From positions 1 to 64,000 of the forward strand of contig NW_027507071.1 of the NCBI RefSeq assembly GCF_052324685.1: a stretch of 64,000 nucleotides of DNA, in the 5' to 3' direction. The position numbers were made by a program, and so were the translations under genes. The stretch comes from Brachyhypopomus gauderio. Its lineage: Eukaryota; Chordata; Actinopteri; Gymnotiformes; Hypopomidae. The notes under the pieces are model-generated. The model saw only the letters and a list, made by a program, of their open reading frames with translations, ran no database searches and had not been told where the DNA came from. Shown piece after piece: positions 29,034-64,000 of the stretch (position 1 is its first letter; each line of letters begins with the position of its first letter).

Positions 29034-29125
29034 CTGACTCACGTTTTAAACGTTTTATCACGACAAGAGCTACACAATACTGCTCTAAAACACAGTGCTC
29101 TGATAAAGAAGATAAATGGAATGTA

Positions 29126-29324: not shown

Positions 29325-29385
29325 TATAAATGTCTGTATTGTAAAGACGACATTTTACCCTGATGCTTTTGTCGGCATTTTTCAG

Positions 29386-33748: not shown

Positions 33749-33859
33749 GGTCTAAGGTCTCTTAACAGGGCTCCAGCTGATAAAACTGCTGGGTCAGGAA
33801 GGGGTCCTAAAAAACAAAAACTATCAGTCCTACCAACCGCTAAAAAGGCGTGGGCGATG

Positions 33860-39820: not shown

Positions 39821-41229
39821 AGTGTGAAACTGAATAAAAACTACAACAAAATACAATTACAACATATACTATTGTAATAATACACGGTCCCTACAGTGTA
39901 ACATAGCATACATTGACACTGTATTAGTGCACTATAAACATTTGGCTTCAATAATATATGACAGCTACAGAATAAATTTATCTGATATTGCAATATATCA
40001 TGATAGAACTAAATATAAGTAAATAAACAATATACATACAGACGATACCACGAAAGACGAAGGATGAAGGCAGATGCATGTGGATTATCTGTCAGTCATC
40101 AAACACATGTAAAACATCCATGAACTTTCTACTTCCTGTGATGTTACTGACTATTTACAAAATCACTAATAGGAGGTGCTAAAGCTACACTTACAACACT
40201 AACAGCACAAGCTAACAGCACAATAATAATTGAAAGAAACTCATACCAGTCTCAATGAACTGCTGAAAATATCCCGAGATGCGACACTTGTTTTCCAGTG
40301 GTCAGTCGTCATCATCATCATCTGCACTGCTTTCAGTGGGCCAGCGTATGTATGGGAGCAATATCTTAAAAACAAAAGCACTCAAGACTCCTGCTGTTTG
40401 TATATGTCTAGGTCATGTACACCACATAAATGTGTTATCGAAAATTGTTTTCTTTAAAAAATATGTACATAAACATACCTGTGGCATAAGTGAATATTCA
40501 CTTTCCTTTGGAAAAACCTGCACATCTTTCCTTTCAATCAACAGTGACCACACCTTGGTTTCCTTTAGTCCTTTCCAAATTTGTTTCAACTGACGCAATC
40601 GTCTACCAATTACCTGCAGATTTGGCAAAAGTCACAATACAATACTGCTTAATTTCATGTAATGTATTAAAATTTGCAGTGAAATGGAATGTGTAGATAG
40701 GGCATGTTACCGCATGTGACAAAAGGCGTTCAAAGAGCCACCTTCTGTTTGTATTGGTTGGGCCAGGTAGATCCCAAGAAAGATTCAAGGACAGTCTGGC
40801 ATTCATCTTCACTGAGTTCATCATCTCCATCAACCTGGACATAAATGGCTGCAACAACTTTTTCAATAAAAATAGAAAGAAAAAAAAATTAAACACATGA
40901 TGTACATACCAATTTGATGATTTCTCGTATATCATGGTCAGGACAATCTTCTATTTGCACTGTGGCTGTCTCAGGTGAATCATGGACAATTGCTCTGCTG
41001 AGTCCAGGCAGCCGAGGCCCCCCATGTAAGAATGTCCCAGCATCCGTCCAGCTACTAGAAACATGTCACCCTCAATGAGGAACTGGGATGATGAAGGGAC
41101 CAGATGATCAGGTTCACCTTCAAATAGGCATGTCCTTTCGGTATTTCCTGTAATTGAAAGATGGACACGAATGTCAACATTTCTAATTCCAAGAAAAAGT
41201 AATAAACATGTGTAACAATGATCATCATC
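39821..41229. repeat. HECT exon block, tandem copy 1 of 3 (1409 bp)
   Basis: Nearly identical to the next two blocks, with a period of exactly 1409 bp (39821, 41230, 42639). On the minus strand it contains the same four exon-like pieces described for copy 3: 41138-40902, 40828-40704, 40606-40482 and 40357-40240 (approximate). This is the copy furthest downstream in gene orientation. Confidence 0.95.
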
Positions 41230-42638
41230 AGTGTGAAACTGAATAAAAACTACAACAAAATACAATTACAACATATACTATTGTAATAATACACGGTCCC
41301 TACAGTGTAACATAGCATACATTGACACTGTATTAGTGCACTATAAACATTTGGCTTCAATAATATATGACAGCTACAGAATAAATTTATCTGATATTGC
41401 AATATATCATGATAGAACTAAATATAAGTAAATAAACAATATACATACAGACGATACCACGAAAGACGAAGGATGAAGGCAGATGCATGTGGATTATCTG
41501 TCAGTCATCAAACACATGTAAAACATCCATGAACTTTCTACTTCCTGTGATGTTACTGACTATTTACAAAATCACTAATAGGAGGTGCTAAAGCTACACT
41601 TACAACACTAACAGCACAAGCTAACAGCACAATAATAATTGAAAGAAACTCATACCAGTCTCAATGAACTGCTGAAAATATCCCGAGATGCGACACTTGT
41701 TTTCCAGTGGTCAGTCGTCATCATCATCATCTGCACTGCTTTCAGTGGGCCAGCGTATGTATGGGAGCAATATCTTAAAAACAAAAGCACTCAAGACTCC
41801 TGCCGTTTGTATATGTCTAGGTCATGTACACCACATAAATGTGTTATCGAAAATTGTTTTCTTTAAAAAATATGTACATAAACATACCTGTGGCATAAGT
41901 GAATATTCACTTTCCTTTGGAAAAACCTGCACATCTTTCCTTTCAATCAACAGTGACCACACCTTGGTTTCCTTTAGTCCTTTCCAAATTTGTTTCAACT
42001 GACGCAATCGTCTACCAATTACCTGTAGATTTGGCAAAAGTCACAATACAATACTGCTTAATTTCATGTAATGTATTAAAATTTGCAGTGAAATGGAATG
42101 TGTAGATAGGGCATGTTACCGCATGTGACAAAAGGCGTTCAAAGAGCCACCTTCTGTTTGTATTGGTTGGGCCAGGTAGATCCCAAGAAAGATTCAAGGA
42201 CAGCCTGGCATTCATCTTCACTGAGTTCATCATCTCCATCAACCTGGACATAAATGGCTGCAACAACTTTTTCAATAAAAATAGAAAGAAAAAAAAATTA
42301 AACACATGATGTACATACCAATTTGATGATTTCTCGTATATCATGGTCAGGACAATCTTCTATTTGCACTGTGGCTGTCTCAGGTGAATCATGGACAATT
42401 GCTCTGCTGAGTCCAGGCAGCCGAGGCCCCCCATGTAAGAATGTCCCAGCATCCGTCCAGCTACTAGAAACATGTCACCCTCAATGAGGAACTGGGATGA
42501 TGAAGGGACCAGATGATCAGGTTCACCTTCAAATAGGCATGTCCTTTCGGTATTTCCTGTAATTGAAAGATGGACACGAATGTCAACATTTCTAATTCCA
42601 AGAAAAAGTAATAAACATGTGTAACAATGATCATCATC
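41230..42638. repeat. HECT exon block, tandem copy 2 of 3 (1409 bp)
   Basis: The second copy differs from the first at only a handful of bases (for example ctgtagattt against ctgcagattt near 42023, which removes the AG of one splice acceptor). Confidence 0.95.
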
Positions 42639-44040
42639 AGTGTGAAACTGAATAAAAACTACAACAAAATACAATTACAACATATACTATTGTAATAATA
42701 CACGGTCCCTACAGTGTAACATAGCATACATTGACACTGTATTAGTGCACTATAAACATTTGGCTTCAATAATATATGACAGCTACAGAATAAATTTATC
42801 TGATATTGCAATATATCATGATAGAACTAAATATAAGTAAATAAACAATATACATACAGACGATACCACGAAAGACGAAGGATGAAGGCAGATGCATGTG
42901 GATTATCTGTCAGTCATCAAACACATGTAAAACATCCATGAACTTTCTACTTCCTGTGATGTTACTGACTATTTACAAAATCACTAATAGGAGGTGCTAA
43001 AGCTACACTTACAACACTAACAGCACAAGCTAACAGCACAATAATAATTGAAAGAAACTCATACCAGTCTCAATGAACTGCTGAAAATATCCCGAGATGC
43101 GACACTTGTTTTCCAGTGGTCAGTCGTCATCATCATCATCTGCACTGCTTTCAGTGGGCCAGCGTATGTATGGGAGCAATATCTTAAAAACAAAAGCACT
43201 CAAGACTCCTGCCGTTTGTATATGTCTAGGTCATGTACACCACATAAATGTGTTATCGAAAATTGTTTTCTTTAAAAAATATGTACATAAACATACCTGT
43301 GGCATAAGTGAATATTCACTTTCCTTTGGAAAAACCTGCACATCTTTCCTTTCAATCAACAGTGACCACACCTTGGTTTCCTTTAGTCCTTTCCAAATTT
43401 GTTTCAACTGACGCAATCGTCTACCAATTACCTGCAGATTTGGCAAAAGTCACAATACAATACTGCTTAATTTCATGTAATGTATTAAAATTTGCAGTGA
43501 AATGGAATGTGTAGATAGGGCATGTTACCGCATGTGACAAAAGGCGTTCAAAGAGCCACCTTCTGTTTGTATTGGTTGGGCCAGGTAGATCCCAAGAAAG
43601 ATTCAAGGACAGCCTGGCATTCATCTTCACTGAGTTCATCATCTCCATCAACCTGGACATAAATGGCTGCAACAACTTTTTCAATAAAAATAGAAAGAAA
43701 AAAAAAACACATGATGTACATACCAATTTGATGATTTCTCGTATATCATGGTCAGGACAATCTTCTATTTGCACTGTGGCTGTCTCAGGTGAATCATGGA
43801 CAATTGCTCTGCTGAGTCCAGGCAGCCGAGGCCCCCCATGTAAGAATGTCCCAGCATCCGTCCAGCTACTAGAAACATGTCACCCTCAATGAGGAACTGG
43901 GATGATGAAGGGACCAGATGATCAGGTTCACCTTCAAATAGGCATGTCCTTTCGGTATTTCCTGTAATTGAAAGATGGACACAAATGTCAACATTTCTAA
44001 TTCCAAGAAAAAGTAATAAACATATGTAACAATGATCATC
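42639..44040. repeat. HECT exon block, tandem copy 3 of 3
   Basis: The third copy is about 7 bp shorter because of a small deletion at the A-run near 43701-43707. It is the copy that joins the unique upstream exon at 44045-44131. Confidence 0.95.
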
Positions 44041-46132
44041 ATACCTAGATTAATACTGAAGCCAGCTTTAAGCCTTTGAATAATTGCTGAAAAGAAGTAT
44101 CTTGTCACTCCTTCACCAACAGCAACATCTCCTAATATGGTAAACACAATTTAAAAGATAAAAACACAGAAATTAACAAGTTGTGTAAATGAATTAACAA
44201 TTAACAAGTTGAAGGTGGTGTGCTGGACTTAGTCCTCCAATATCAGAAACTGAATTAGGGTCATTCTATTATCATCCACAATAAAGATCTTGGCTCAAAT
44301 TCTTGGGGTTAAAATTATTAATACTACAGACTATATTTTTGCTGTATTGACTAGACATTTCCTACTGTTCTTTCATACAAAAAGCTTTACAATGCTTTAC
44401 AATTTTTGACTTGAAAAGGTACAGAAACGTCTAGCCCAACACCTGCAGCCTAAATCTTGCAAGCTAGACATGATTTTGAAGATTCAATTGATAAATAACT
44501 GAGCATGGTACTTCTTAGATCAGATCAATGAACTAACTATGGGCTAGTTATTTAGGTGGTGATGAAAAAATTACTGATATGAATATTTACTGATAATGGC
44601 TATACTTGCTGCAAATGAACCAGAAGTTATTTCTGTATAACTGTTGAAACATGATCAGGAAGGTGCACTGAAAGCACTTTAAGGAAGGTAAATATGTTTT
44701 CTCTACAGAGTTCAGATTCAGTTGAGCATTATTTAGTCTAGATGCCAATAATAAGTGAAACAGAAATAACTGTCTATGGTTGGTATCCCATTCAAGAAGA
44801 AATCTGTTAAACAGCAATTTCAGACCACTTTTTCGTGGTCTCGCTGGACTCGCACTTAAAATGAATGAATTAGTGGCTAATTTTATGTGATTTACGTAAT
44901 TTCGAACATATCAAATCTTGTTGAACATGTTCGTGTTTGTTCTGTTATATTCCGTTCAGTAGATCAAAAGTTCTGGAGTTTTGAAGATTAAGGTGATTTG
45001 TAAGCGCTAAATAAAGTAACTTCCTGTTCGAAGGCAGAATTAATTCATGGTTAGGAAGATTTTATAAACTCTTAACTGCTACCATGTGAAATTTCATAAC
45101 CATCCGAGAACCGGCAATGAGTGAATTTGTTCAGTACAAAAACGCGCATCCTGCAGGTCGAGTACATGTAGCTTAGACGCTCCACAGAAAGGATAACCAG
45201 TAATTCCTCCCTTAATCTTTGACCTTGACATTTGACCTGTATTGATCAAAGTAATGTTGATGTGGTTCCATATCCTGTAGGCCAATTGTATTTTATTCCT
45301 TCCTTGAAAATTTCATTTCATTATCTTCATTATTTCCATTATTCACAAATTTGACCACAACATATTATTTGTATTGTAGCACATAGTACAAAATATTTAG
45401 CTCACTACATTAAAATATATAAGAGACCTGACATTATCTTGACTAGGGCCAGCTGCACTTCCTGACTGCGAGGTCAACAAGGACAACAGGTTCCTTGTGG
45501 ACCTGATAACATTTGCATTTCCCTACAAGCACAAAGAAAACACAACTAATATTTGTACCCTTTCTTGCATCCTACGCATTCCCGCCATGCTGCCAATCGT
45601 GGAAAGAAAATAAAGGGTTTAACAAGAATGAATAAACATGTATAAAATGGCGGCATGAACAACTTCTGAAACACTCTGCTATGCCTTTGTTTTTTATATG
45701 CATTTAAAACATTAACTGCCAATAGCAAACCATTTACTACGATACTTTTGAACGGTCCAAACGCGAAGTTTAAACGTATTGCCCGTTTTACAGCCTGTAG
45801 CTAGTTCTGATAACTAGAACCAGCAAGACCCTGATTGTTTTATGCCCTAAAATTAACTATTTTCTATCCTACAACCATTCTGACAAATGAATGTTACTAC
45901 GTCAGGGAAACACATACTTAAACGATAATGTTAATCAGTACACTTCAAACTCTTTATATGAGAGCAGCTCATACCAACCAAAGCTCTTAGTTAACCTCTA
46001 CTAACAAGCTAGCTAACTAGCTAAAGTTCCCCCGCGTTATAACGCAACCACCGTTACGTAACGCAACACATCAAACTTGCCGCGTTGAATCTGAATAACT
46101 TTGGATGCACTTACCTCGTTGTGGTGCTCCAT
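43065..46132 (-). pseudogene. G2E3-like HECT-domain ubiquitin ligase gene, decayed
   Basis: Minus-strand exons with GT-AG edges are: first coding exon 46132-46115 (MEHHNE), a tentative exon 45522-45428 (GNANVIRSTRNLLSLLTSQS), 44131-44045 (DVAVGEGVTRYFFSAIIQRL), 43961-43724 (EGEPDHLVPSSSQ, FLVAGRMLGHS, then EDCPDHDIREIIKL), 43652-43529 (DGDDELSEDE, SWDLPGPTNTNRRWLFERLL), 43431-43307 (GRRLRQLKQIWKGLKETKVW) and 43182-43065 (ILLPYIRWP, NKCRISGYFQQFIET). This is the N-lobe side of the HECT domain of the fish G2E3-like family, which ubiquitinates substrates through a catalytic Cys in the C-lobe. The C-lobe is missing. There are frameshifts in exons 43961-43724 and 43652-43529 and an in-frame TGA in the last exon, shared by all three tandem copies, so it decayed before the triplication. 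Confidence 0.7.
44132..45427. other. Presumed intron of the HECT gene
   Basis: AT-rich, with no exon or element that I recognise. The middle exons expected for the family were not found here. Confidence 0.4.
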
Positions 46133-46230: not shown

Positions 46231-46872
46231 GTTTACTTTTCCTGAGAAGCCCGGATGTTTCATCGCGGGTCTGAATCTGTATTTCTGAGTTTTGAATCAT
46301 AGCGATTTGAATTTAAGGATCTAATTTTTTTTCATGTGAAAAATGCAAGTTGTAATATTGAAATTTATTTTTTTCCAACAGCAAATTTCACCATCTCGCA
46401 AGTTCAAAACATAAAAAAGCATTGTTAAAATTCAAATGTATGAATTACGCCATTAAATATTTCAAGTGTATTAAATGTAATGTAAATATAATACAAATAT
46501 ACAAAATTCAGATTCAAATATTTATGCTCCATATTTTTAGCTCCATATTCATCAGGTTATTGTAGCAGCCTGGCTGATTTCGTGACATCGCGCGTGCTAA
46601 GCCACTTAGAATGTTTGGTTTTGAATGTTTGATTGGGAAGGTGGAATGTTTGGATTTCAGTTTCGATGCTGAAAAGCTCAAAACCGGTCGTATGAGATTT
46701 TGCTCTGCGATTTACAATCTAATGCGATTTTCTAATCTTCACTTTGAGAATGAGTTTTTACCCTCTGATAACTGACCTGCCTGGGCAGGAACAGAACCAC
46801 GTCATGGACACGCCAGATTTTACCACTCATGGTGAGAAAAAAATGTTCATATACTGTACATAACTTTATACT
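46231..46872. other. No gene recognised
   Basis: AT-rich intergenic sequence with A/T runs. No repeat family recognised. Confidence 0.4.
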
Positions 46873-47225
46873 CAGGGTTGCCAACTCTCACGCATTGAGC
46901 GTGAGACACACACATTTGACCGTCTTCACACGCTCTCACGCCACACTTGCGATATCTCACGGCGAAAAAAAAAATCCGGTTTATTTATCTCTGATCTACA
47001 TCTATGATTCAATTAGTTACTAGTTCGCTCTGGCGCCAACCACCGGCGATCGATATAATACTTAATTTGTGTCCATTTTATCGATAGATCGCGATATAAC
47101 ACTTAATTTGTGTCCATTTTATGTTCACCCCCCGTCGACAACTTACGTTCGCCACCAATTTACACTCGCCACCTCCTCCAGGTTCAAATCTCACTCCAAG
47201 CGATCTTCAAAAGTTGGCAACCCTG
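46873..47225 (+). mobile_element. 353-bp MITE (CAGGGTTGCCAACT ends)
   Basis: Inverted termini CAGGGTTGCCAACT / AGTTGGCAACCCTG with TATACT on both sides (46867-46872 and 47226-47231), a 6-bp target duplication. It contains 'tcgatcgatat...acttaatttgtgtcc' text that recurs inverted in the copy at 48072. Non-coding; superfamily not assigned. Confidence 0.8.
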
Positions 47226-48071
47226 TATACTTCTATATAAGACAGTACATTTAGTGAACATTGCTTATGAGTATTGATTTCCATAGGCTTATTTATATTA
47301 AAAATGTAATATACACATGTATGTAGTTTTCTAAGGTTTAGAAAAATAACCTATATATATATATATATATATGTATTCTACTGGTGACTTTCAAGCTCTT
47401 TATTTCATGTGTACAGGACATTTTGATTATTATAATTAATGGAGCATGGGTTATTTCTTTGACTCAGCACAATTTTCATAAATCCCACCATGTTAACATT
47501 CTCCATGTTGCCATGGAAAATGCAAATACAAATAAACATTTTTAAAAAGAAACGGGTTTCATGACATGACATCACAAATTCTTATGCATTCTCCCCACAT
47601 TCTAATGACATCACATGGCACCATAGCCCTTCTTATAATCACTTGTTCATAATCACTTACAATAAGAATAAAGGAATATAAGAGGAATAAACTTCTTGAA
47701 GTCATGAGATCTGCACAGATTATAGTCACTTTCAGAAACAGAAAAAATGTGCTCCCATGCCTTACAGATTTATTCAGCTGTTTTAGCTCTCAAGTGAAAA
47801 GCACAGCTATTCTGTAGCTTTGATTTGATGCACTTTATATCTTTTATGTCAAACGTTTTATTTAAATGTCTACATTTAATTTAAAATTTAATAATGTGTT
47901 TTCCTCTATAAATTTATTTCTAACATTTCATTATTGAATTTTTGTTCTATTTAAATCAATTGTATTTAATTATTTGTGATAGCTTTTATCTCTATTTTTT
48001 TTCTTATAGACCTGATGATCTTATAGACTCATGCTTCCTCTGTGCCCTGGGTTGGTGTTTTGCATTTAAAA
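47226..48071. other. No gene recognised
   Basis: About 0.85 kb of AT-rich sequence between two inverted MITE copies, with a (TA)n run near 47352. Confidence 0.4.
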
Positions 48072-48405
48072 CAGGGTTGCCAAATGACACACGCATTTGA
48101 CCGTCTTCACTCGCTCTCACGCCACACTTCCGATTTCTCACGCAGTGGGTGGGTGGGGGGGTTGCGAACGTAAGTTGTCACCGGCCGGGGTGTAAAATGG
48201 ACACAAATTAAGTATTATATCGCGATCGATCGCCAGTGGTTGGCACCAGAGCGAACTAGTAACTCATTGAATCATAGATGTGAATCAGAGGTAAATAAAC
48301 TAGATTTTTTTTCCGGCTTGAGAAATCGTATGTGTGGCGTGAGAGCGTGTGAAGACGGTCTAATGCGTGTGTCTCACGCTCAATGCGTGAGAGTTGGCAA
48401 CCCTG
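48072..48405 (-). mobile_element. Second copy of the CAGGGTTGCCAA MITE, inverted
   Basis: About 334 bp, related to 46873-47225 but in the opposite orientation: 'gagcgtgagac' is at the left end there and at the right end (inverted) here. No clear target duplication is visible, so the flanks may have been rearranged. Confidence 0.75.
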
Positions 48406-48417
48406 TGTATCTGCATG

Positions 48418-48558
48418 CACGGACGTAATTTGGGGGGGGAGGGGGGGTCATGTCACCCCCACTTTTTCAAAAGCCAGTTTTGGACCCCCCCAGTTTTTAC
48501 GGTTAAAACCAAATATTTAAATACCCCCCCCACTTTTTATTACAAAATTACGTCCATG
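48418..48558. mobile_element. hAT-type MITE, 141 bp
   Basis: Termini CACGGACGTAATTT and AAATTACGTCCATG are inverted repeats. An 8-bp target duplication TCTGCATG is present at 48410-48417 and 48559-48566. The interior consists mostly of G and C runs. Confidence 0.85.
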
Positions 48559-48718
48559 TCTGCATGTACCTGTAACTAATTTCTCAACAGTGAACTGTAC
48601 CAAAAAATGGTTGGAGTATCCAATTTGAGGGCATTTTACTGTTTGATTTTGAGTAACAAAACAGGTTATCGTACAAGCTTGAGGCAGTAGACCTCAAGTA
48701 ATAGTTGTAACAATGTGA

Positions 48719-48738
48719 CCCCCCCCCCCCCCCCCCCC
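48719..48738 (+). repeat. Poly-C run
   Basis: About 20 consecutive C upstream of the first USP42 exon. Confidence 0.9.
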
Positions 48739-48839
48739 AGCCAGCATGTATGTTCTGTTTGTGTCATTCTGAGCAATTACCACAGGTGAGTTCTTGAAAA
48801 GTGCATCTAACTTCAACGATCTGATTCTATCTGGCAGGA

Positions 48840-50497
48840 ATGAATAGTGACCATGGAGAAGATAAGCCCAAGGAGACTGGTGAGTACTTTACCGTTTACT
48901 CCATGTTCCAGGGATGCACCGGTTCTGTGTCCTGCAAGCATTTCTGAAGCAACCGTGTTGCTGTACGAAAGCCGTAACGAATGCCTCTGTTTGTCCATGT
49001 AGTGGTGCTTGCCAGTGGCGATGGCATCCCTCTACCCCAGATGGTCCTGTTCCCAGCAGAACACCTCTGTTTAAATTGGAACCAGGTCCATCGTATTGGA
49101 GCAGGTCTACAGAACCTGGGCAACACGTGTTTTTTAAACTCTGCCCTTCAGTGTCTCTCCTACACTGCTCCTCTCGCCAACTACATGCTGTCCAGAGAGC
49201 ATTCCACAACATGTGAGTCACTCCCCATCCTTCTCCTCCTGCCACACATCTTGGTTCTAAAGTATTTAACATATCCAACGTAGCCTGTTTTAGTTCTTGC
49301 ATCATTATGTAATCAGCCTTATATGAGCTGACTGCAAGTTGAACAAGAGTAAATTGTCTAACATTTCTAATATCACAAGAGAGGAGCAGAAATTAAGCTT
49401 GGTTGTCTAGACCAATGTTGGGTAAAGAATGGAGTGTCCACTGGTATGAGACGATATTTAGGGCTGTTCAATAAAAGGTGTTAACAGAGGTGTCAGCAGG
49501 CCTCTGTTTTGCATGAACCAGCAGGTGTCTTTGTTGGGAGCAGAGTGTGCTTCTTCCCATTGGCTGCAACAGTTCATTCAGTATCTCGATCATCTCAGGA
49601 TGATCTACACACAGTCCTTAATTTCACAATGTGTTCAGAGTTTCTATGTAATGCTGTAAGACAAAACGCAGATCTGATGAACATTTGCTATGATGTTTTG
49701 GGTTTATTGTATGTTTTCCCATCTGTTGAATGAAGTCTTTATCAACCAAGGGGTGCAGTTGTCCTTTGTACAAACTATTTAACATTATTGTGAGTTTGTC
49801 AATGTTATTTGCTTCCGTAAAGGTTTTCTAATTGATATACATAGAAAACATTTGGTTGGAAACATGGCTGTGTTAATTACCTGCTTATTAACTGCTTATT
49901 AACTTTCAAGATTATCTACTGGTATTTAGTGATACCATCTGTATATTTATTATGCCTTAATTCTGAGTCCTCTTTTTCCCCCGAAGGTCATGAACCTGGA
50001 TTTTGCATGATGTGCATCATGGAGAATCACATCACCCAGGTGTTTGCCAATTCAGGAAAAGTCATTAAACCCATCAGTGTGCTGAATGAACTAAAATGTG
50101 AGTATGCAAATGGTGATGGACAAAAGCAACATCATATTCCTTTGAGCACCGTTAAATATGAACATTTCTAATTGTGGTCCATCTCCTTTTCTTTTTCAAA
50201 GGTATTGCAAGTCATTTCTGTTTTGGGAGTCAAGAAGACGCTCATGAGTTCTTGCGGTACACAGTGGACACTATGCAAGAGTCCTGCCTGTTTTGGAGCA
50301 TGTATGTTTACTTGGACCACACCCTATATTATTGCTCAAGTTGCTAAATTATTGAATTTTAGCATTCATCTATTTCTTAGCATGTTTGTTGGATATCTGT
50401 GGGTCGCAGAATTGTTACTTGACTCTTCTTGCAGACAGATATTTAAAAATGTCACTTCTAGCAGGTGCAGCTGTGGCTGTTAGTCAGGTGTATTATT

Positions 50498-50530
<33 letters not shown>

Positions 50531-53500
50531 ATTATTTGGAGAGTAAATACGTGGATCCAAGGGTCCTTTTTTGGCGTTTTTTGTGCTTTCCATTTCACTG
50601 ACTGAAAAAAGAGCGGAGACTGGTGCTTGATACCGGTGTGAAGAAAATTGCTGATGTATCCACCAGTTATTAAGATTGTCCTGTATCTAAATGAGGCCAG
50701 GTTGGTCTAAGAAAATAGAAGTAGTTCTGCATTTGTGCAGAAACTGCACAGGCATACAGGGTGGTTTACTCTCACCCCTCTCTTCCATACCACAGTCGAC
50801 AGCTTGTTTATGTGTGGCTAACACGTTAGTCCACCAGCGCTCTGTATGTGGGCTGTGCGCTCTCTCCCAAGTTGCTTTGATGCGGTGCCAGCTGCTGCTT
50901 CTCAACATCTCTCCACTACTGGCCAGCCAGCAGCCTACATTCAGAACGAAGCGTTTGACTTTACCAGTTACGTGTGGAGATGAATCCATCAGGGAATCGC
51001 TGCGTCGTTCTAGTTTCTGGCAATTTTCACGTCAGACCTCATTTCTGTTCTGCTTTGTGCTTTTAGAAAGCGTTATTCAGAAAGGCGTTTAGATACACTT
51101 AAAGGTTGTACTCTTACAATTGCATGTTTGTTTATATTCTCTTTTTAATTTCTTGTTTTAGTTTCTATCTGAATAAATTACATTTTCTGCCTTGTCTGAT
51201 GTTTTTATTTAATCAGACTGGACAGGGAAACACAGGCAACCACTCTGATCCATCAGATATTTGGAGGTTACCTGAGGTCAAGATGTGAGTTTGTCAGTCA
51301 TACTTCATTTCAATTTGTGAACATCAAATGGTAAAATGGTATTTACTGTAAAATGTTACTATAAATTATTTATTTCATAAGTGTTCAATGTGTATGACTG
51401 GCAATGCTATTTGAGATGTTTTTGATCAGTTAAATTGATTATATTCTTTCTGATTTCACAGTGGAGTGTTTGAACTGCAATGGAGTATCTGATACGTTTG
51501 ATCAGTATTTGGACATTGCACTGGACATTGAGGTAGCCATCAGTCACTCTGTTGTATCTTTTATAAAGATGTCCATAGAAATGATCTGGGCTTTGAAATT
51601 GATTCTATCAGTTTGTTAAAGTGTGTGCGTGCATGTGTACATGTGTGAGGTGGACATTTGTTTAGATTATTAATTAGGTCTGCTAATCATGGCATGTCTG
51701 GCTTACAATTTAGTCTTGTATGAGAGTTGCTGTCTTAGTGAATTAATGATTACTCAGTGAATTGATAATTGCTTGTCCCAAACTGGTGTCTGAGATGTAA
51801 AGCATCATGGGATCAGTTTGACAAGATTTTCTTTAGCCCTGTGTCTGTGCCTAAGCGTGTTTACATGTGTTTTGTAGACTGCTCCAACCATCACCAAAGC
51901 TCTTGAGCAGTTTGTTAAGCCTGAGCAGCTTGATGGAGACAATGCCTACAAGTGCACCAAGTAAGTGTCCCAGCTCAGATCTGCTCCACCATGCTGTCCA
52001 ACAGGGTAACCATGTGTTTTTTCCAAAAGTAGCATGACCAGTAACTTTAGACTCAGGAAGGCGGATACAAACTGCCAGCCTCATTTTCAAAATATTTTCA
52101 CATAAAACTCAAAAAGCCGTCTTCGGCCACGTACTACAGAGGGCTTTGAAACCAATGGATAAGAGGGATAAAGGTGCTCTTTACAGTCTATTTTGGATAA
52201 GTCTGAGGCACACCGGTTTATCTCTGGAGATAAACCAAGCTCTATTTGTTGTCATGGGACCACTAGTGGTGAATTTACTGTGGTCTGTGTTGCCTATTAT
52301 CTTTTCTGTCCTCATTGTGAATTTGGTTGTGTTTGTAGATGTAAGAAAATGGTTCATGCCTCAAAAAGATTTACAGTCCACCGTAGCTCGAATGTGCTCA
52401 CCATTGCTTTAAAGCGCTTCGACTTCAACGGAAGCAAAATTGCAAAGGTTTGACCACCGTACTTAATTCTGCCGCACTGTTGTACACTTTCCTTAGTCGT
52501 TTCACGTGATCTATGCCGTTGCACAACTGTTCTCTGTCCCCCTGTGCAGGACGTGAGGTATCCAGAGTATCTGGACATGCGTCCGTTCATGTCGCAGTCC
52601 CACGGAGAGCCACAGCTCTATGGCCTGTACGCTGTGCTGGTCCACTCCGGGATTAGCTGCCACGCCGGACACTACTACTGCTATGTGAAGGTTTGATGTG
52701 CTGCGCGGTTTCAGCATTCTCTGTGTTTTTGCACTGAGTTTCTGCTCTAGCTAATGGATGGAATAATGTTTTTATTTCAGTCTGGTAATGAGCAGTGGTA
52801 TAAGATGAACGACGCATCAGTAACTGTAAGCGACATACAATCAGTGCTGAATCAACAAGCATATTTACTGTTCTACATCCGGTAAGTTCAACTTAATGTT
52901 TAAACCAACTCCAGATTTTTGAATAGTGGAATATTTAGAAAGGCATTTTATACACTTTTATTGACTGTAACTCTGTGACCCGTGGTCCCGGTCATTGCTC
53001 CCCTCGCCCGGTCAGCACGGCCAAGGTGAACGGGCCTCAGTTCACCTCCACCTCCGTCATCAGTCCACAGCTTTCTCCTCACATGGCAAAGGTATCACCG
53101 CACCACTGCACCATGCCAGGAAATCTGACTGGGAACTGGTTGTTATTGTTCACTAGTATAATTGAGAGGGCTGTGTTTTGTTTGTTTACACTGTTAAACT
53201 CTTACTTTCTGTTCCTGATATTCAGATTTCCCATAACTGACCGCTGTTCACTTTGCAGAATAACTCTCCCATGAAGGAGGACCAAGGTGGCTCAAAGCCT
53301 GGCGGGAGCAACAGCAGCAGCGTCCCGAAGAGCCAGCCCAGCCCCTGCAGTTCTTCGGCTGCCGCATCCCCGACCTCAGACCTCAGACGGCCTGTGCAGG
53401 TGAACGGTGGCACCACCGCTCACAATAGAGCAGCATCTCTGTCTGGTGCGCCAGGCTCTAGTGAAGGCAGACGAGCGCGTGAGGAGCGGAAGTGTGATAA

Positions 53501-54388
53501 AGATTCTGAGCAGCCACACCTTTCCTCCACACTGAAGGAGCGAGGCAGATCCAGGCAGGGACATTATCGCGAGCGGGAAAACCGGAGTCGGGAGCGCTAC
53601 GGGCACCGCCATCGCCATCGCCATCGTCCCAACAGAGACCACCATACTGATAAGGATCGCTCGGCCAGTCGAGAGAGGATCCCTGGAGAGCGAGAGGGAG
53701 ATCGCCACCGGGACGGGCACACCCACCACCGCCGAGACCACTACCACCACCGGCGCCATCACAGCAGCAAGGACGAACGAGACCGGGATGTGGAGAATGG
53801 TCAAGGTGACTTCCCTCGCTCATTTGAGTACTATGTTGGGAAGAAAGACTCGGGACACAAGCGGGCTAAAGCACCACGCCCCGCCAGCCCTGCCCCGCGG
53901 CCCCAGGCACAAAAGCGTAGCCTGTCGGACAGGGAGGATCCATGTGAAGAGCGGCCTGTCAAAAAACATAAGAAATCCAAGAAGAAGAACAAGGACAAGC
54001 GGAGGTAAGGAGCTATTTATGTTGCATGAGAACGGCCATTGCTATACTGTGTGTGACCAGGAGGGGTCAGCAAACAGAACTGTTACTGTTGTAGAAAATC
54101 TAGCAACCATAAGCCAGAAAGTGTACTACAGTTTCCTTAAGCAAATCATTTTCAATCTGCAGGAGTTCTGAGAGGGACCCATCAGACAGGAATGGGGACA
54201 GCAGCTCCTTCCGACACAAAAAGATGAAAAAGAAGAGGAGGAGGCACAACTTGGAGGAGGAGCCTCGTATGGAGTGTCGCTCTGGCCACAGCTTAGACAA
54301 ACGTAAGCGCCGCCTCAGCTCCGACCCAGACGAGTCTTCACCCAGCGCCAAGCGACCTACTACTGAGGACTATTACCAGACTCAGTAG
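48840..54388 (+). CDS. usp42: Ubiquitin-specific protease 42 (USP42), first copy, spliced
   Basis: A C19 deubiquitinase that removes ubiquitin from proteins, mainly in the nucleus. Exons: 48838-48879 (ATG at 48840), 49003-49212, 49987-50097, 50202-50301, 51217-51284, 51462-51532, 51878-51960, 52339-52447, 52550-52690, 52781-52881, 53016-53091, 53259-54004 and 54163-54388 (TAG). The Cys box is [18 protein letters not shown] (exon 2) and the His box is [12 protein letters not shown] (52550-52690). CTKCKKM belongs to the zinc-binding part. The [12 protein letters not shown] stretch, a His/Arg-rich tail and a KKHKKSKKK end match USP42 rather than USP36. The 5' edge of the 53016 exon is uncertain: SPRPVS upstream of the acceptor looks coding, and an older exon start survives only in the later half-copies. 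Compared with mammalian USP42 the region between catalytic domain and tail is shortened. From 52165 onward the gene is duplicated. Confidence 0.85.
50487..50529 (+). repeat. (ATT)n microsatellite
   Basis: Trinucleotide run in the USP42 intron between exons 50202-50301 and 51217-51284. Confidence 0.9.
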
Positions 54389-54443
54389 ATCGTGCTCTGA
54401 TGCCACGCTCCCTCCTTCGCCTTCCTCTGGACAGACAAAAGCG

Positions 54444-54875
54444 ATGTCCGAGCCTCTTACTCAGGATGTCGCTCCCCTGCTGTCCCCGCCTCCTCACAGG
54501 CCCCATTCAGCCCCCGAGACGCCAGCTAAGCCAACCGACACCACGCCTCGCACCCAGACGGCCTCGGCTGAGGAGCCCATCTACTGCCACGACACCCATG
54601 TGACGAAAGGCACCACGGCGCCCCCAGAGGCCAACCACGACCTCTGCTCACAGGGGGGCGACGGGCACGTGGCTTTAGAGAGGCCCGTGGCAACCGCGGA
54701 CGCCTTTGTGCCCAACGGCGATGACTGCAGGGAAGATGCGGCGGCGTCTCTGTCTGGTGCGCCAGGCTCTAGAGAAGGCAGACGAGCGCGTGAGGAGCGG
54801 AAGTGTGTGCGCCGCCTCAGCTGCGACCCAGACGGGTCTTCACCCAGCGCCAAGCGACCTACTACTGAGGACTAA
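54444..54875 (+). pseudogene. USP42 middle-region coding-like piece (MSEPL), unit 1
   Basis: An open frame of 143 codons after the USP42 stop. It is rich in Pro/Thr/Ala and ends in RRAREERKC...[16 protein letters not shown], which repeats text from the tail exon and the final exon. It looks like the disordered middle of USP42 displaced by unequal recombination. Whether it is spliced into any transcript is unknown: an AG precedes it at 54433-54436 here, but unit 2 has lost that AG. Confidence 0.55.
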
Positions 54876-54948
54876 TACCAAGTTAACGTCACTCAGGTGC
54901 ATAAGGGTCAACTTTCTTTCCAAGTTTCAATTATCCATTACAAACTAG

Positions 54949-55911
54949 TAATGAGCAGTGGTATGAGATGAACGATGCATCAGTATCTGTAAGTGACATA
55001 CGATCAGTGCTGAACCAACAGGCGTACTTACTGTTCTTCATCCAGTCATTTCAATCTAATGTTTAAACCATTATATTTAGAATATTTAGAAAGGCATTTT
55101 ATACACTTTTATTCCCCCCCCCCCCCCCCCCCCCCCCCATCCATCATTTTTAGGTCAACAGATCTTAAACTGAGACTGTAACTCTGTGACCCATGGTCCC
55201 GGTCATTGCTCCCCTCGCCCGGTCAGCACGGCCAAGGTGAACGGGCCTCAGTTCACCTCCACCTCCTTCATCAGTCCACAGCTTCCTCCTCACATGGCAA
55301 AGGTATCACCACACCACTGCACCATGCCAGGACATCTGACTGGGAACTGGTTGTTATTGTTCACTAGTATAATTGAGAGGGCTGTGTTTTGTGTGTTTAC
55401 ACTGTTAAACTCTTACTTTCTGTTCCTGATATTCAGATTTCCCATAACTGACCGCTGTTCACTTTGCAGAATAACTCTCCCATGAAGGAGGACCAAGGTG
55501 GCTCAAAGCCTGGCAGCAGCAACAGCGGCAGCGTCCCGAAGAGCCGGCCCAGCACCTGCAGTTCTTCGGCTGCCGCATCCCACCTGCGCCCGCTGCCCTC
55601 GTCCTCTTCCTCCAGCGCACCACAGTCTACCTCAGACCTCAGTTGGCCTGTGCAGGTGAACGGTGGTGCCGCCGCTCACAATAGAGCAGCTTTCCTGGTT
55701 CCGTATGGCCAAGAGTCATCCGACGAGTCCGACCAGGAAGGCGGAGCCTTGGATAATGGCACAGGGAAGTCTTACCCTGGTGCCAAGGCATCCGACGGGA
55801 AAGGTGGGATGGATGGTCCCCTCTTCCACAGCTCAAGCTGCCTCACGCCCAAGACCAACGGAGAGAGGCCCGTGGCAACCGCGGACGCCTTTGTGCCCAA
55901 CGACGATGACT
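54949..55911 (+). pseudogene. Second half-copy of USP42 exons in unit 1
   Basis: Contains a worn copy of the C-lobe exon (54949-55048, [10 protein letters not shown]...QQAYLLF), a poly-C run (about 55115-55138), the STAKVNG exon (55227-55302), and a short NNSPM exon from 55470. The last continues as [12 protein letters not shown] and [17 protein letters not shown], a conserved USP42 motif absent from the long NNSPM exon. The frame stays open from here across the unit boundary through the next CKKM exon, to 56222. Confidence 0.65.
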
Positions 55912-56107
55912 GGGATAAAGGTGCTCTTTACTTCTGTCCCTTAACACACGGCAAGACTATCTTGGATAAGTCTGAGGCACACCGGTTTATCTCTGGAGAT
56001 AAACCAAGCTCTATTTGTTGTCATGGGACCACTAGTGGTGAATTTACTGTGGTCTGTGTTGCCTATTATCTTTTCTGTCCTCATTGTGAATTTGGTTGTG
56101 TTTGTAG

Positions 56108-58145
56108 ATGTAAGAAAATGGTTCATGCCTCAAAAAGATTTACCGTCCGCCGTAGCTCGAATGTGCTCACCATTGCTTTAAAGCGCTTCGACTTCAACGG
56201 AAGCAAAATTGCAAAGGTTTGACCACCGTACTTAATTCTGCCGCACTGTTGTACACTTTCCTTAGTCGTTTCACGTGATCTATGCCGTTGCACAACTGTT
56301 CTCTGTCCCCCTGTGCAGGACGTGAGGTATCCAGAGTATCTGGACATGCGTCCGTTCATGTCGCAGTCCCACGGAGAGCCACAGCTCTACGGCCTGTACG
56401 CTGTGCTCGTCCACTCCAGGTTTAGCTGCCACGCCGGACACTACTACTGCTATGTGAAGGTTTGATGTGCTGCGCGGTTTCAGCATTCTCTGCGTTTTTG
56501 CACTGAGTTTCTGCTCTAGCTAATGGATGGAATAATGTTTTTATTTCAGTCTGGTAATGGGCAGTGGTATAAGATGAACGACGCATCAGTAACTGTAAGC
56601 GACATACAATCAGTGCTGAACCAACAAGCGTATTTACTGTTCTACATCCGGTAAGTTCAACCTAATGTTTAAACCAGCTCCAGATTTTTGAATAGTGGAA
56701 TATTTAGAAAGGCATTTTATACACTTTTATTGACTGTAACTCTGTGACCCGTGGTCCCGGTCATTGCTCCCCTCGCCCGGTCAGCACGGCCAAGGTGAAC
56801 GGGCCTCAGTTCACCTCCACCTCCGTCATCAGTCCACAGCTTTCTCCTCACATGGCAAAGGTATCACTACACCACTGCACCATGCCAGGAAATCTGACTT
56901 GGAACTGGTTGTTATTGTTCACTAGTATAATTGAGAGGGCTGTGTTTTGTTTGTTTACACTGTTAAACTCTTACTTTCTGTTCCTTATATTCAGATTTCC
57001 CATAACTGACCGCTGTTCACTTTGCAGAATAACTCTCCCATGAAGGAGGACCAAGGTGGCTCAAAGCCTGGCAGCAGTGTCCCGAAGAGCCAGCCCAGTC
57101 ACTGCATTTCTTCGGCTGCCGCATCCCCGACCTCTGACCTCAGACGGCCTGTGCAGGTGAACGGCGGCGCCGCCGCTCACAATAGAGCAGCATCTCTGTC
57201 TGGTGCGCCAGGCTCTAGTGAAGGCAAACGAGCGCGTGAGGAGCGGAAGTGTGATAAAGACTCTGAGCAGCCACACCTTTCCTCCACCCTGAAGGAGCGA
57301 GGCAGATCCAGGCAGGGACATTATCGAGAGCGGGAAACCCGGAGTCGGGAGCGCTACGGGCACCGCCATCGCCATCGCCATCGTCCCAACAGAGACCACC
57401 ATACTGATAAGGATCGCTCGGCCAGTCGAGAGAGGATCCCTGGAGAGCGAGAGGGAGATCGCCACCGGGACGGGCACACCCACCACCGCCGAGACCACTA
57501 CCACCACCGGCGCCATCACAGCAGCAAGGACGAACGAGACCGGGATGTGGAGAATGGTCAAGGTGACTTCCCTCGCTCATTTGAGTACTATGTTGGGAAG
57601 AAAGACTCGGGACACAAGCGGGCTAAAGCACCACGCCCCGCCAGCCCTGCCCCGCGGCCCCAGGCACAAAAGCGTAGCCTGTCGGACAGGGAGGATCCAT
57701 GTGAAGAGCGGCCTGTCAAAAAACATAAGAAATCCAAGAAGAAGAAGAAGGACAAGCGGAGGTAAGGAGCTATTTATGTTGCATGAGAACGGCCATTGCT
57801 ATACTGTGTGTGACCAGGAGGGGTCAGCAAACAGAACTGTTACTGTTGTAGAAAATCTAGCAACCATAAGCCAGAAAGTGTACTACAGTTTCCTTAAGCA
57901 AATCATTTTCAATCTGCAGGAGTTCTGAGAGGGACCCATCAGACAGGAATGGGGACAGCAGCTCCTTCCGACACAAAAAGATGAAAAAGAAGAGGAGGAG
58001 GCACAACTTGGAGGAGGAGCCTCGTATGGAGTGTCGCTCTGGCCACAGCTTAGACAAACGTAAGCGCCGCCTCAGCTCCGACCCAGACGAGTCTTCACCC
58101 AGCGCCAAGCGACCTACTACTGAGGACTATTACCAGACTCAGTAG
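56108..58145 (+). pseudogene. USP42 C-lobe and tail exons, copy 2
   Basis: Exons at 56108-56216, 56319-56459, 56550-56650, 56785-56860, 57028-57761 and 57920-58145 (TAG). All splice edges and the His box are kept and the frames are open. No Cys-box exons precede it, so on its own it cannot encode a complete protease. It could serve as alternative 3' exons of the upstream gene. Confidence 0.75.
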
Positions 58146-58200
58146 ATCGTGCTCTGATGCCACGCTCCCTCCTTCGCCTTCCTCTGGACGGACAAAAGCG

Positions 58201-58638
58201 ATGTCCGAGCCTCTCACTCAGGATGTCGCTCCCCCGCTGTCCCCGCCTCCTCACAGGCCCCATTCAGCCCCCGAGACGCCAGCTAAGCCAACCGACACCA
58301 CGCCTCGCACCCAGATGGCCTCGGCTGAGGAGCCCATCTACTGCCACGACACCCATGTGACGAAAGGCACCACGGCGCCCCCAGAGGCCAACCACGACCT
58401 CTGCTCACAGGGGGGCGACGGGCACGTGGCTTTAGAGAGGCCCGTGGCAACCGCGGACGCCTTTGTGCCCAACGAGGATGACTGCAGGGAAGATGCGGTG
58501 GCGTCTCTGTCTGGTGCGCCAGGCTCTAGAGAAGGCAGACGAGCGCGTGAGGAGCGGAAGTGTGTGCGCCGCCTCAGCTGCGACCCAGACGGGTCTTCAC
58601 CCAGCGCCAAGCGACCTACTACTGAGGACTATTACCAA
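58201..58638 (+). pseudogene. USP42 MSEPL piece, copy 2
   Basis: Copy of 54444-54875. It is open further, because the TAA at the end of copy 1 is TAT here, so the frame runs to 58728. The candidate acceptor AG before it is mutated (ggacgg). Confidence 0.55.
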
Positions 58639-58705
58639 CTTAACGTCACTCAGGTGCATAAGGGTCAACTTTCTTTCCAAGTTTCAATTATCCATTACAA
58701 ACTAG

Positions 58706-59654
58706 TAATGAGCAGTGGTATGAGATGAACGATGCATCAGTATCTCTAAGTGACATACGATCAGTGCTGAACCAACAGGCGTACTTACTGTTCTACATCC
58801 AGTCATTTCAATCTAATGTTTAAACCATTATATTTAGAATATTTAGAAAGGCATTTTATACACTTTTATTCCCCCCCCCCAATCCATTATTTTTAGGTCA
58901 ACAGATCTTAAACTGAGACTGTAACTCTGTGACCCGTGGTCCCGGTCATTGCTCCCCTCGCCCGGTCAGCACGGCCAAGGTGAACGGGCCTCAGTTCACC
59001 TCCACCTCCTTCATCGGTCTACAGCTTCCTCCTCACATGGCAAAGGTATCACCACACCACTGCACCATGCCAGGAAATCTGACTGGGAACTGGTTGTTAT
59101 TGTTCACTAGTATAATTGAGAGGGCTGTGTTTTGTTAGTTTACACTGTTAAACTCTTACTTTCTGTTCCTTATATTCAGATTTCCCATAACTGACCGCTG
59201 TTCACTTTGCAGAATAACTCTCCCATGAAGGAGGACCATGGTGGCTCAAAGCCTGGCGGCAGCAACAGCAGCAGCGTCCCGAAGAGCCGGCCCAGCCCCT
59301 GCAGTTCTTCGGCTGCCGCATCCCACCTGCGCCCGCTGCCCTCGTCCTCTTCCTCCAGCGCACCACAGTCTACCTCAGACCTCAGTTGGCCTGTGCAGGT
59401 GAACGGTGGCGCCACCGCTCACAATAGAGCAGCTTTCCTGGTTCCGTATGGCCAAGAGTCATCCGACGAGTCCGACCAGGAAGGCGGAGCCTTGGATAAT
59501 GGCACAGGGAAGTCTTACCCTGGTGCCAAGGCATCCGACGGGAAAGGTGGGATGGATGGTCCCCTCTTCCACAGCTCAAGCTCCCTCACGCCCAAGACCA
59601 ACGGAGAGAGGCCCGTGGCAACCGCAGACGCCTTTGTGCCCAACGATGATGACT
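58706..59654 (+). pseudogene. Second half-copy of USP42 exons in unit 2
   Basis: A worn C-lobe exon (58706-58800), STAKVNG exon (58970-59045) and short NNSPM exon from 59213 with [17 protein letters not shown]. The open frame runs into the next unit and stops at a TGA inside its first C-lobe exon (about 59873). Confidence 0.65.
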
Positions 59655-59850
59655 GGGATAAAGGTGCTCTTTACTTCTGTCCCTTAACACACGGCAAGTC
59701 TATCTTGGATAAGTCTGAGGCACACCAGTTTATCTCTGGAGATAAACCAAGCTCTATTTGTTGTCATGGGACCACTAGTGGTGAATTTACTGTGGTCTGT
59801 GTTGCCTATTATCTTTTCTGTCCTCATTGTGAATTTGGTTGTGTTTGTAG

Positions 59851-61900
59851 ATGTAAGAAAATGGTTCATGCCTGAAAAAGATTTACCGTCCACCGTAGCT
59901 CGAATGTGCTCACCATTGTTTTAAAGCGCTTCGACTTCAACGGAAGCAAAATTGCAAAGGTTTGACCACCGTACTTAATTCTGCCGCACTGTTGTACACT
60001 TTCCTTAGTCGTTGCACGTGATCTATGCCGTTGCACAACTGTTCTCTGTCCCCCTGTGCAGGACGTGAGGTATCCAGAGTATCTGGACATGCGTCCGTTC
60101 ATGTCGCAGTCCCACGGAGAGCCACAGCTCTACGGCCTGTACGCTGTGCTGGTCCACTCCGGGATTAGCTGCCACGCCGGACACTACTACTGCTATGTGA
60201 AGGTTTGATGTGCTGCGCGGTTTCAGCATTCTCTGCGTTTTTGCACTGAGTTTCTGCTCTAGCTAATGGATGGAATAATGTTTTTATTTCAGTCTGGTAA
60301 TGGGCAGTGGTATAAGATGAACGACGCATCAGTAACTGTAAGCGACATACAATCAGTGCTGAACCAACAAGCGTATTTACTGTTCTACATCCGGTAAGTT
60401 CAACCTAATGTTTAAACCAGCTCCAGATTTTTGAATAGTGGAATATTTAGAAAGGTATTTTATACACTTTTATTGACTGTAACTCTGTGACCCGTGGTCC
60501 CGGTCATTGCTCCCCTCGCCCGGTCAGCACGGCCAAGGTGAACGGGCCTCAGTTCACCTCCACCTCCTTCATCGGTCCACAGCTTCCTCCTCACATGGCA
60601 AAGGTATCACCGCACCACTGCACCATGCCAGGAAATCTGACTGGGAACTGGTTGTTATTGTTCACTAGTATAATTGAGAGGGCTGTGTTTTGTTTGTTTA
60701 CACTGTTAAACTCTTACTTTCTGTTCCTGATATTCAGATTTCCCATAACTGACCGCTGTTCACTTTGCAGAATAACTCTCCCGTGAAGGAGGACCAAGGT
60801 GGCTCAAAGCCTGGCGGCAGCAACAGCGGCAGCGTCCCGAAGAGCCAGCCCAGCCCCTGCAGTTCTTCGGCTGCCGCATCCCCGACCTCTGACCTCAGAC
60901 GGCCTGTGCAGGTGAACGGTGGCGCCGCCGCTCACAATAGAGCAGCATCTCTGTCTGGTGCGCCAGGCTCTAGTGAAGGCAGACGAGCGCGTGAGGAGCG
61001 GAAGTGTGATAAAGACTCTGGGCAGCCACACCTTTCCTCCACCCTGAAGGAGCGAGGCAGATCCAGGCAGGGACATTATCGCGAGCGGGAAAACCGGAGT
61101 CGGGAGCGCTACGGGCACCGCCATCGCCATCGCCATCGTTCCAACAGAGACCACCATACTGATAAGGATCGCTCGGCCAGTCGAGAGAGGATCCCTGGAG
61201 AGCGAGAGGGAGATCGCCACCGGGACGGGCACACCCACCACCGCCGAGACCACTACCACCACCGGCGCCATCACAGCAGCAAGGACGAACGAGACCGGGA
61301 TGTGGAGAATGGTCAAGGTGACTTCCCTCGCTCATTTGAGTACTATGTTGGGAAGAAAGACTCGGGACACAAGCGGGCTAAAGCACCACGCCCCGCCAGC
61401 CCTGCCCCGCGGCCCCAGGCACAAAAGCGTAGCCTGTCGGACAGGGAGGATCCATGTGAAGAGCGGCCTGTCAAAAAACATAAGAAATCCAAGAAGAAGA
61501 AGAAGGACAAGCGGAGGTAAGGAGCTATTTATGTTGCATGAGAACGGCCATTGCTATACTGTGTGTGACCAGGAGGGGTCAGCAAACAGAACTGTTACTG
61601 TTGTAGAAAATCTAGCAACCATAAGCCAGAAAGTGTACTACAGTTTCCTTAAGCAAATCATTTTCAATCTGCAGGAGTTCTGAGAGGGACCCATCAGACA
61701 GGAATGGGGACAGCAGCTCCTTCCGACACAAAAAGATGAAAAAGAAGAGGAGGAGGCACAACTTGGAGGAGGAGCCTCGAATGGAGTGTCGCTCTGGCCA
61801 CAGCTTAGACAAACGTAAGCGCTGCCTCAGCTCCGACCCAGACGAGTCTTCACCCAGCGCCAAGCGACCTACTACTGAGGACTATTACCAGACTCAGTAG
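59851..61900 (+). pseudogene. USP42 C-lobe and tail exons, copy 3
   Basis: Exons at 59851-59959, 60062-60202, 60293-60393, 60528-60603, 60771-61516 and 61675-61900 (TAG). The first of these has a TGA in place of the Ser codon after KKMVHA, so this copy has begun to decay. The others remain open with intact splice edges. Confidence 0.75.
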
Positions 61901-61955
61901 ATCGTGCTCTGATGCCACGCTCCCTCCTTCGCCTTCCTCTGGACAGACAAAAGCG

Positions 61956-62370
61956 ATGTCCGAGCCTCTTACTCAGGATATCGCTCCCCTGCTGTCCCCG
62001 CCTCCGCACAGGCCCCATTCAGCCCCCGAGACGCCAGCTAAGCCAACCGACACCACGCCTCGCACCCAGACGGCCTCGGCTGAGGACCCATCTACTGCCA
62101 CGACACCCATGTGACGAAAGGCACCACGGCGCCCCCAGAGGCCAACCACGACCTCTGCTCACAGGGGGGCGACGGGCACGTGGCTTTAGAGAGGCCCGTG
62201 GCAACCGCGGACGCCTTTGTGCCCAACGGCGATGACTGCAGGGAAGATGCGGTGGCGTCTCTGTCTGGTGCGCCAGGCTCTAGAGAAGGCAGACGAGCGC
62301 GCGAGGAGCGGAAGTGTGTGCGCCGCCTCAGCTGCGACCCAGACGGGTCTTCACCCAGCGCCAAGCCACC
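61956..62370 (+). pseudogene. USP42 MSEPL piece, copy 3, interrupted by Tc1
   Basis: Copy of 54444-54875 with a one-base loss near 62088 that shifts the frame. It is cut by the transposon after SPSAKPPT. Confidence 0.6.
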
Positions 62371-62372
62371 TA

Positions 62373-62597
62373 CAGTTGTGGTCAAAAGTTTACATACACT
62401 TGTAAAAAACATAATGTTATGGCTGTCTTGAGTTTTCAATAAGTTCTACAACTCTTATTTTTCTGTGATAGAGTGATCGGAACACATACATGTTTGTCAC
62501 AAAAAACAGTCATAAAATTTGGTTCTTTCATAAATTTATTATGGGTCTGCTGAAAATGTCACCAAATCTGCTGGGTCAAAAATATACATACAGCAAC
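62373..62597 (+). repeat. Tc1 left inverted repeat (IR/DR)
   Basis: The complement of 63795-64000. It includes the outer and inner direct repeats to which Tc1 transposase binds in this family. Confidence 0.9.
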
Positions 62598-62598
62598 A

Positions 62599-63645
<1,047 letters not shown>

Positions 63646-63794
63646 TCACTGGGTCAAATGAGCCCTATTTAAATGGGCTCATGAGAAGTCAACAGCTGTA
63701 GTCAATCAGAATCACTTACAAGAAGTGAAGAGGCCATGACATGAAGCTAATTTGATTGACACAACTCGCTACATCACCAAAATTGACAAATTTT

Positions 63795-64000
63795 GTTGCT
63801 GTATGTATATTTTTGACCCAGCAGATTTGGTGACATTTTCAGCAGACCCATAATAAATTTATGAAAGAACCAAATTTTATGACTGTTTTTTGTGACAAAC
63901 ATGTATGTGTTCCGATCACTCTATCACAGAAAAATAAGAGTTGTAGAACTTATTGAAAACTCAAGACAGCCATAACATTATGTTTTTTACAAGTGTATGT
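63795..64000 (-). repeat. Tc1 right inverted repeat (IR/DR), cut by window edge
   Basis: Complement of the left repeat. It starts gttgctgtatgtatattttt and ends tacaagtgtatgt at the window edge. Confidence 0.9.

Follow-up and report, generated by a model that had tools for sequence, protein, structure and literature searches.

A probable lineage-specific family of amplified mini-USP42 genes with repeated 3' cassettes in Brachyhypopomus gauderio

The first 64,000 nucleotides of contig NW_027507071.1 of Brachyhypopomus gauderio (NCBI RefSeq assembly GCF_052324685.1), hereafter the window (C227:1-64000 of an assembly of 796.5 Mb in 840 contigs, abbreviated by C and a number), harbor a gene related to the deubiquitinase (DUB) USP42, in which a single set of exons for the N-terminal lobe (N-lobe) of the catalytic domain precedes three copies of the exons for the C-terminal lobe (C-lobe) and the tail. 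Judged from sequence, this locus is probably a member of a rearranged and amplified mini-USP42 family that is specific to the lineage and has at least 17 copies, with the first 3' cassette sound and the extra cassettes inert. The array is not unique to the window, as DNA related to its repeated unit was found at at least 86 places in the genome, a lower bound since 40 of the 111 first-look candidates were scored.

Repeat search and self-comparison identified three direct copies of the C-lobe/tail segment in the window, starting at 52165/52185, 55954 and 59697 and spaced by 3769 and then 3743 bases (Table 1). The identity is far above chance both between 52185-58619 and 55954-62373 (97.8%) and between 52185-54862 and 59697-62373 (98.7%), in agreement with the original prediction of a USP42-type gene with its C-lobe and tail present three times. 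The N-lobe exons occur once, as eight exons (e1 to e8) within 46789-51960 that have canonical GT-AG edges and form one continuous frame; the last of them lies exactly at 51878-51960, where it had been placed. Each copy comprises three C-lobe exons (c1, c2, c3) followed by three tail exons (c4, t1, t2), and the predicted order of one Cys-box set before three sets that each carry a stop holds, with TAG closing t2 in every copy. The GT-AG edges of c1, c2, c3, c4 and t1 and the acceptor of t2 are intact in all three copies, and every cassette has its c1 in phase with e8, so that the preserved splice edges ascribed to copy 2 do exist but do not distinguish it. Each complete unit is a mosaic of a full exon set (A), the displaced middle of the tail and a partial set (B: c3', c4', t1'). 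The divergence between sets A and B per 50-base block is 8-16% over c3 and 0-6% through c4 and intron 4, hence set B is patchy itself. Copy 3 is interrupted at 62372 by an element that we take to be Tc1-like and that continues to the end of the window; since further USP42-derived sequence follows the element at C227:64020-65940, the 3' end of the array lies outside the window. A scan of the window against Rfam gave no match at the gathering score, and a search of viral contigs revealed no relative.

Among the best 60 of 106 sequences listed, the nearest relative of solved structure is USP36 (8bs9, 8bs3; E 1.7e-156), far ahead of USP2, and no USP42 structure occurs among these 60. The gene shares with USP42 a catalytic domain with Cys, QQD-like and His boxes and two CxxC pairs. 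Over the 17 kb read at a locus on C3 (C3:20956114-20961876), the C-lobe exons occur as a single set, and a GT-AG model gives an open frame of 1049 amino acids beginning MTIVVKSSEKSD; this N-terminus and the tail presumably resemble those of human USP42, and we take the C3 gene to be the parental USP42, as judged from its sequence. The original order in the parent is c1, c2, c3, c4, start of t1, mid1, mid2, t1b and t2. Compared with it, the derived duplicate is shorter by some 70 codons at the N-terminus (most of the first coding exon) and by some 290 residues in the Pro/Ser-rich middle of the tail; the splice acceptor of c4 is lost as well, and scrambled tail pieces lie between its 3' exons. 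The predicted tail has 349 amino acids versus 637 in the parent (Lys plus Arg 86 versus 106, Pro 27 versus 64), with the Arg/His- and Lys-rich blocks retained and the Pro/Ser-rich middle absent. Blocking loop 1, named after the excerpted text of PMC10611586, reads RFDFNGS instead of RFANFNGG and is thus one residue shorter; a high number of loci and the repeated 3' half further set the derived genes apart from USP42.

In its excerpted text, PMC10611586 gives USP42 as the closest homolog of USP36. Arg-rich and Lys-rich tail blocks like those found here are described for USP42, and either block alone is enough to direct human USP42 to nuclear speckles, according to the part of PMC8329168 available; by analogy, the predicted mini-USP42 could still reach the speckles. 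In the excerpted text of PMC10611586, human USP42 is without the RY motif, whereas the fish parent and the derived genes read EDAHEFLRY, which may be the ancestral state. Introduction of the motif into human USP42 confers reactivity toward Fubi (same excerpt), and by analogy fish USP42 may process Fubi.

N-lobe DNA was found at 17 loci with 98-100% identity and at the C3 locus with 91-92% (21 of 21 candidates scored). At every derived locus, a single N-lobe precedes between one and four 3' cassettes, and e1 was recovered at the other derived loci wherever that stretch was read (86% on C21). In a midpoint-rooted tree of the N-lobe region, the C3 gene stands apart from all 17 loci, the C18 locus and two loci at C10:11.8 come next, and the 14 loci of the main group cluster with support 99/98. 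At 15 of the 17 loci, e2 through c3 of the first cassette form an open catalytic frame. Exons c1 to c3 could be read in 38 of 39 cassette matches covering them, with a fragment on C152 left out. In the main group, the complete cassettes in first position are intact in 13 of 13 cases; all 20 later cassettes are damaged, 13 by the TGA of copy 3 and seven by the changes of copy 2 (Gly>Arg with His>Arg). The same lesions recur throughout these later cassettes, in favor of the alternative already offered in the original prediction, namely that the extra copies are inert. Six of the seven cassettes of the copy-2 type are second in arrays of three (the seventh is at a contig edge), which suggests that arrays of three were copied as blocks. 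In the group of C18 and C10:11.8, the cassettes are intact in five of five cases, two of them in second position, and the tandem unit starts before e6 and has another tail breakpoint (second cassettes at L010 on C18 and L013 at C10:11.85 Mb). As the breakpoints of the units differ between the groups, duplication of the 3' half occurred two or more times, starting from a rearranged ancestor common to both. The truncated t2 match of the window and its spacing of 1918 bases to the next c4 recur at C10:22.079 Mb and C280:74.6 kb, hence the Tc1-like insertion is probably older than the block copying. An artefact of assembly, by duplication of haplotypes or during read correction, is extremely unlikely: some loci do lie on several small contigs, but the loci differ from each other and in their number of cassettes (one to four), including those on contigs of 11-25 Mb, and the tandem units of the two groups have different breakpoints.

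Cassette 1 appears to be the only set in the window able to complete an undamaged USP domain. The N-lobe and cassette 1 splice to an open frame of 703 amino acids with a complete UCH domain (Pfam PF00443, E 7.9e-63, profile positions 1-254 of 254). With cassette 2, the frame is also open (699 amino acids) and carries Gly>Arg within the His-box motif HSG(I/F)SCHAGHY and His>Arg in c1. The Gly is conserved in USP36 and USP2, and the position of the His is already Arg in the homolog 6tbm, so only Gly>Arg is a likely lesion; His>Arg, at first considered a clear one, was accordingly reduced to a weaker status. The C-lobe of cassette 3 is not intact, as a TGA replaces codon 9 of the C-lobe in the zinc-finger exon c1. 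Within the window, divergence between cassettes amounts to 1.7-2.6% in the catalytic exons and to 0.9-1.1% in the non-exon part of set A, so that cassettes 2 and 3 show no sign of constraint. A possible fusion was also considered, in which t1' stays open through intron 8 into the next c1 (frame 55452-56219), and was rejected, as about 60 open codons are not rare by chance and the same frame runs into the TGA in copy 3.

Neither AATAAA nor ATTAAA occurs within 51900-62391, canonical signals being the only ones judged. The Tc1-like element contains one of each (63852 and 63091, respectively), and the first signal beyond it lies at C227:65977, in DNA matching the downstream flank of the parent. 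In the parent, AATAAA is found about 640 bases past the stop, outside the segment contained in the cassettes, so that by canonical signals single cassettes are not self-sufficient 3' ends. A known general kind of gene carries alternative terminal exons in arrays, one 5' part being joined to one of several possible 3' parts, and the fish array resembles this kind in its layout; it differs in having no canonical poly(A) signal per cassette and damaged later cassettes. The original prediction had offered such a gene as one option, with three 3' ends to select from; isoforms with different C-lobes would result. This is highly unlikely, even though all three cassettes have preserved splice edges, e8 joins c1 in phase each time, and cassette 2 is open with its variant recurring in seven cassettes: cassette 2 carries Gly>Arg at a site kept in USP36 and USP2, and the catalytic exons show no sign of constraint between the cassettes of the window. 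Three functional 3' ends were rejected on account of the stop in cassette 3 together with the lack of canonical signals.

Entry into the tail of the mini-USP42 would depend on a new splice site. The acceptor of c4 in the parent scores 6.6 and is absent from the first cassette at 17 of 17 loci, while an internal site at 53016, CAG in the derived genes and GAG in the parent, scores 4.2 versus -3.5 (approximate scores) and restores the frame into t1 and t2. With this site, all 14 first cassettes in which every tail exon was read have an open tail, the C18 first cassette being left out of this count. Of 20 c4 copies of set B that retain the parental acceptor, 18 run into a stop within about 10 codons; since the other two, both on C21 (L019 C21:1887202 and L021 C21:1947779), keep the parental frame open, some C21 loci may enter the tail in another way.

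Several observations weigh against a sound mini-USP42 or for the rival reading, which we consider unlikely, that the family is dead, its 17 loci giving at best non-coding or decay-prone RNA and its open frames being leftovers of recent duplication. The original c4 acceptor is lost and its replacement has a low score. Because canonical poly(A) signals are absent from the cassettes, downstream cassettes would be spliced on after t2, which would invite nonsense-mediated decay. At C10:22.07, a 1-base deletion in e3 shifts the frame, and at C21:1.94 the first cassette has lost c1 and part of c2 and the next c1 has the TGA; the latter locus was counted as not open because its own c1 and c2 are missing. 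The tail is also open in six of seven non-first cassettes examined, thus an open tail does not single out cassette 1 and was rejected as proof of function. Since the lesions were apparently inherited by block copying, the 20 damaged later cassettes amount to about two events. The derived branch is fast: among residues polarised by USP36, 15 changed on the derived side and three on the parental side (17 not assignable), pointing to a derived stem that was relaxed or positively selected. Exons are hardly better preserved than introns among the 17 loci, with 13 of 685 exon sites and 65 of 2441 intron sites varying in the N-lobe, and 14 of 351 and 19 of 589, respectively, in the C-lobe. The tail appears near-neutral, with dN/dS of 0.5-0.9 in eight of 11 pairs and either above 1 or without synonymous change in the others, and on this evidence is uninformative on function.

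Against a dead family stand the 15 open catalytic frames and, in a rough neutral model, a chance of about 0.014-0.024 that the derived stem acquired neither nonsense nor frameshift. Changes in the catalytic exons among the 17 loci also lean synonymous: 16 are nonsynonymous and 11 synonymous (p 0.035 in a one-sided comparison with 0.765, ignoring shared descent and multiple testing). For a sound mini-USP42 speaks the catalytic domain, with dS 0.146 and dN 0.050 (dN/dS 0.34) between the parent and the window, where introns differ by 7.3%.

For the amplified mini-USP42 that we favor, unequal exchange between intron 8 and the displaced tail exon would have multiplied the 3' half, and whole blocks would then have been copied to many loci. 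The predicted product has intact catalytic boxes, a shorter blocking loop 1 and the Arg- and Lys-rich tail blocks. Cassettes 2 and 3 would be passengers, read through to a poly(A) site past the array, as they contain no canonical signals of their own.

The original prediction knew of no USP with such an array, which stands for repeated partial 3' cassettes and fails for tandem arrays in general. Human USP17, whose closest relatives are USP36 and USP42, is encoded by a 1593-bp open reading frame (ORF) inside the 4746-bp RS447 megasatellite, a tandem DUB repeat of the same clade; most copies on human chromosome 4 have an intact ORF, and insertion via mRNA is suggested by the authors, while partial 3' cassettes do not appear in the excerpted text (PMC2874809). 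Both systems are amplified, multi-copy DUB genes with tandem repeats, here at 17 loci with one to four cassettes. In contrast to RS447, where each repeat holds a complete ORF, the fish units hold the 3' half only and retain introns, and copying was at the DNA level. By its sequence, the fish family is an intron-bearing counterpart from the same DUB clade and not a member of USP17. No report of USP42 amplification in fish was found among the matches listed in the open-licence literature. Tentatively, the USP36/42 clade could have produced an amplified DUB family a second time and independently of mammalian USP17, with a predicted mini-USP42 of changed blocking loop 1 and speckle-targeting basic blocks at at least 17 loci, dosage-sensitive and perhaps germline or sex-linked, for whose expansion the repeated 3' cassettes served as recombination fuel. 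If it is expressed, two vertebrate groups would independently have made the same DUB branch high-copy, and the proneness of this branch to amplify becomes testable. The series of loci also records the spread of a partial gene duplication, from the parent via a rearranged intermediate to two cassette types and block copying, and annotating such arrays as a choice of isoforms would mislead.

Table 1. Exons, cassettes and adjoining element of the USP42-derived locus in the window
Feature	Position	Strand	Basis or remark
e1, candidate first coding exon (MDTPDFTTHG)	46789..46831	+	GT-AG edges, frame
e2, in-frame ATG at 48840; parent's first coding exon mostly deleted here	48838..48879	+	
e3, Cys box	49003..49212	+	GT-AG, frame; Pfam UCH
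e4	49987..50097	+	GT-AG, frame
e5, QQD-like box, reads EDAHEFLRY	50202..50301	+	GT-AG, frame
e6	51217..51284	+	GT-AG, frame
e7, first CxxC of fingers	51462..51532	+	GT-AG, frame
e8, last single-copy exon	51878..51960	+	GT-AG, frame
Cassette 1, starting within intron 8 and ending within a displaced tail exon	52165..55953	+	
c1 of cassette 1	52339..52447	+	
c2 of cassette 1, His box	52550..52690	+	
c3 of cassette 1	52781..52881	+	
c4 of cassette 1, putative entry via new internal acceptor	53016..53091	+	
t1 of cassette 1; middle of tail deleted, Arg/His- and Lys-rich blocks retained	53259..54004	+	
t2 of cassette 1, TAG at end	54163..54388	+	
Displaced tail middle (mid2 and junction pieces)	54389..54936	+	
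Partial second set: c3' lacking an acceptor; c4' with old acceptor and frame break; t1'	54937..55911	+	
Cassette 2, open; Gly>Arg in His box (56418), His>Arg (56149)	55954..59696	+	
Cassette 3; nonsense TGA in c1 at 59873-59875	59697..62372	+	
Presumed Tc1-like element, terminal inverted repeats (207 bases seen), extends beyond window	62373..64000	.	

The surroundings of the locus are rich in repeats. A 4.68-kb tandem unit, present in a total of about six copies with 99.7-100% identity, occupies 1-20965 and 23503-30859; the unit contains transposon pieces (a Ty3-capsid-like match below the cut-off and HTH_Tnp_4), gave 2093 first-look candidates in the genome, one of which was scored, and has pieces that adjoin at least four USP42-derived loci. 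A 1.4-kb unit is present three times at 39821-44042 (99.4-99.6% identity), and matching pieces are found upstream of some other derived loci. Between e1 and e2, inverted repeats of about 215 bases that are 89% alike (46868-47080 and 48193-48410) enclose about 1.1 kb, a probable DNA transposon. On the minus strand, 31825-32442 and 32975-33751 contain a frame with a YqaJ domain (E 4.2e-19) and a zf-RVT match below the cut-off, probably a fragment of a LINE (long interspersed nuclear element).

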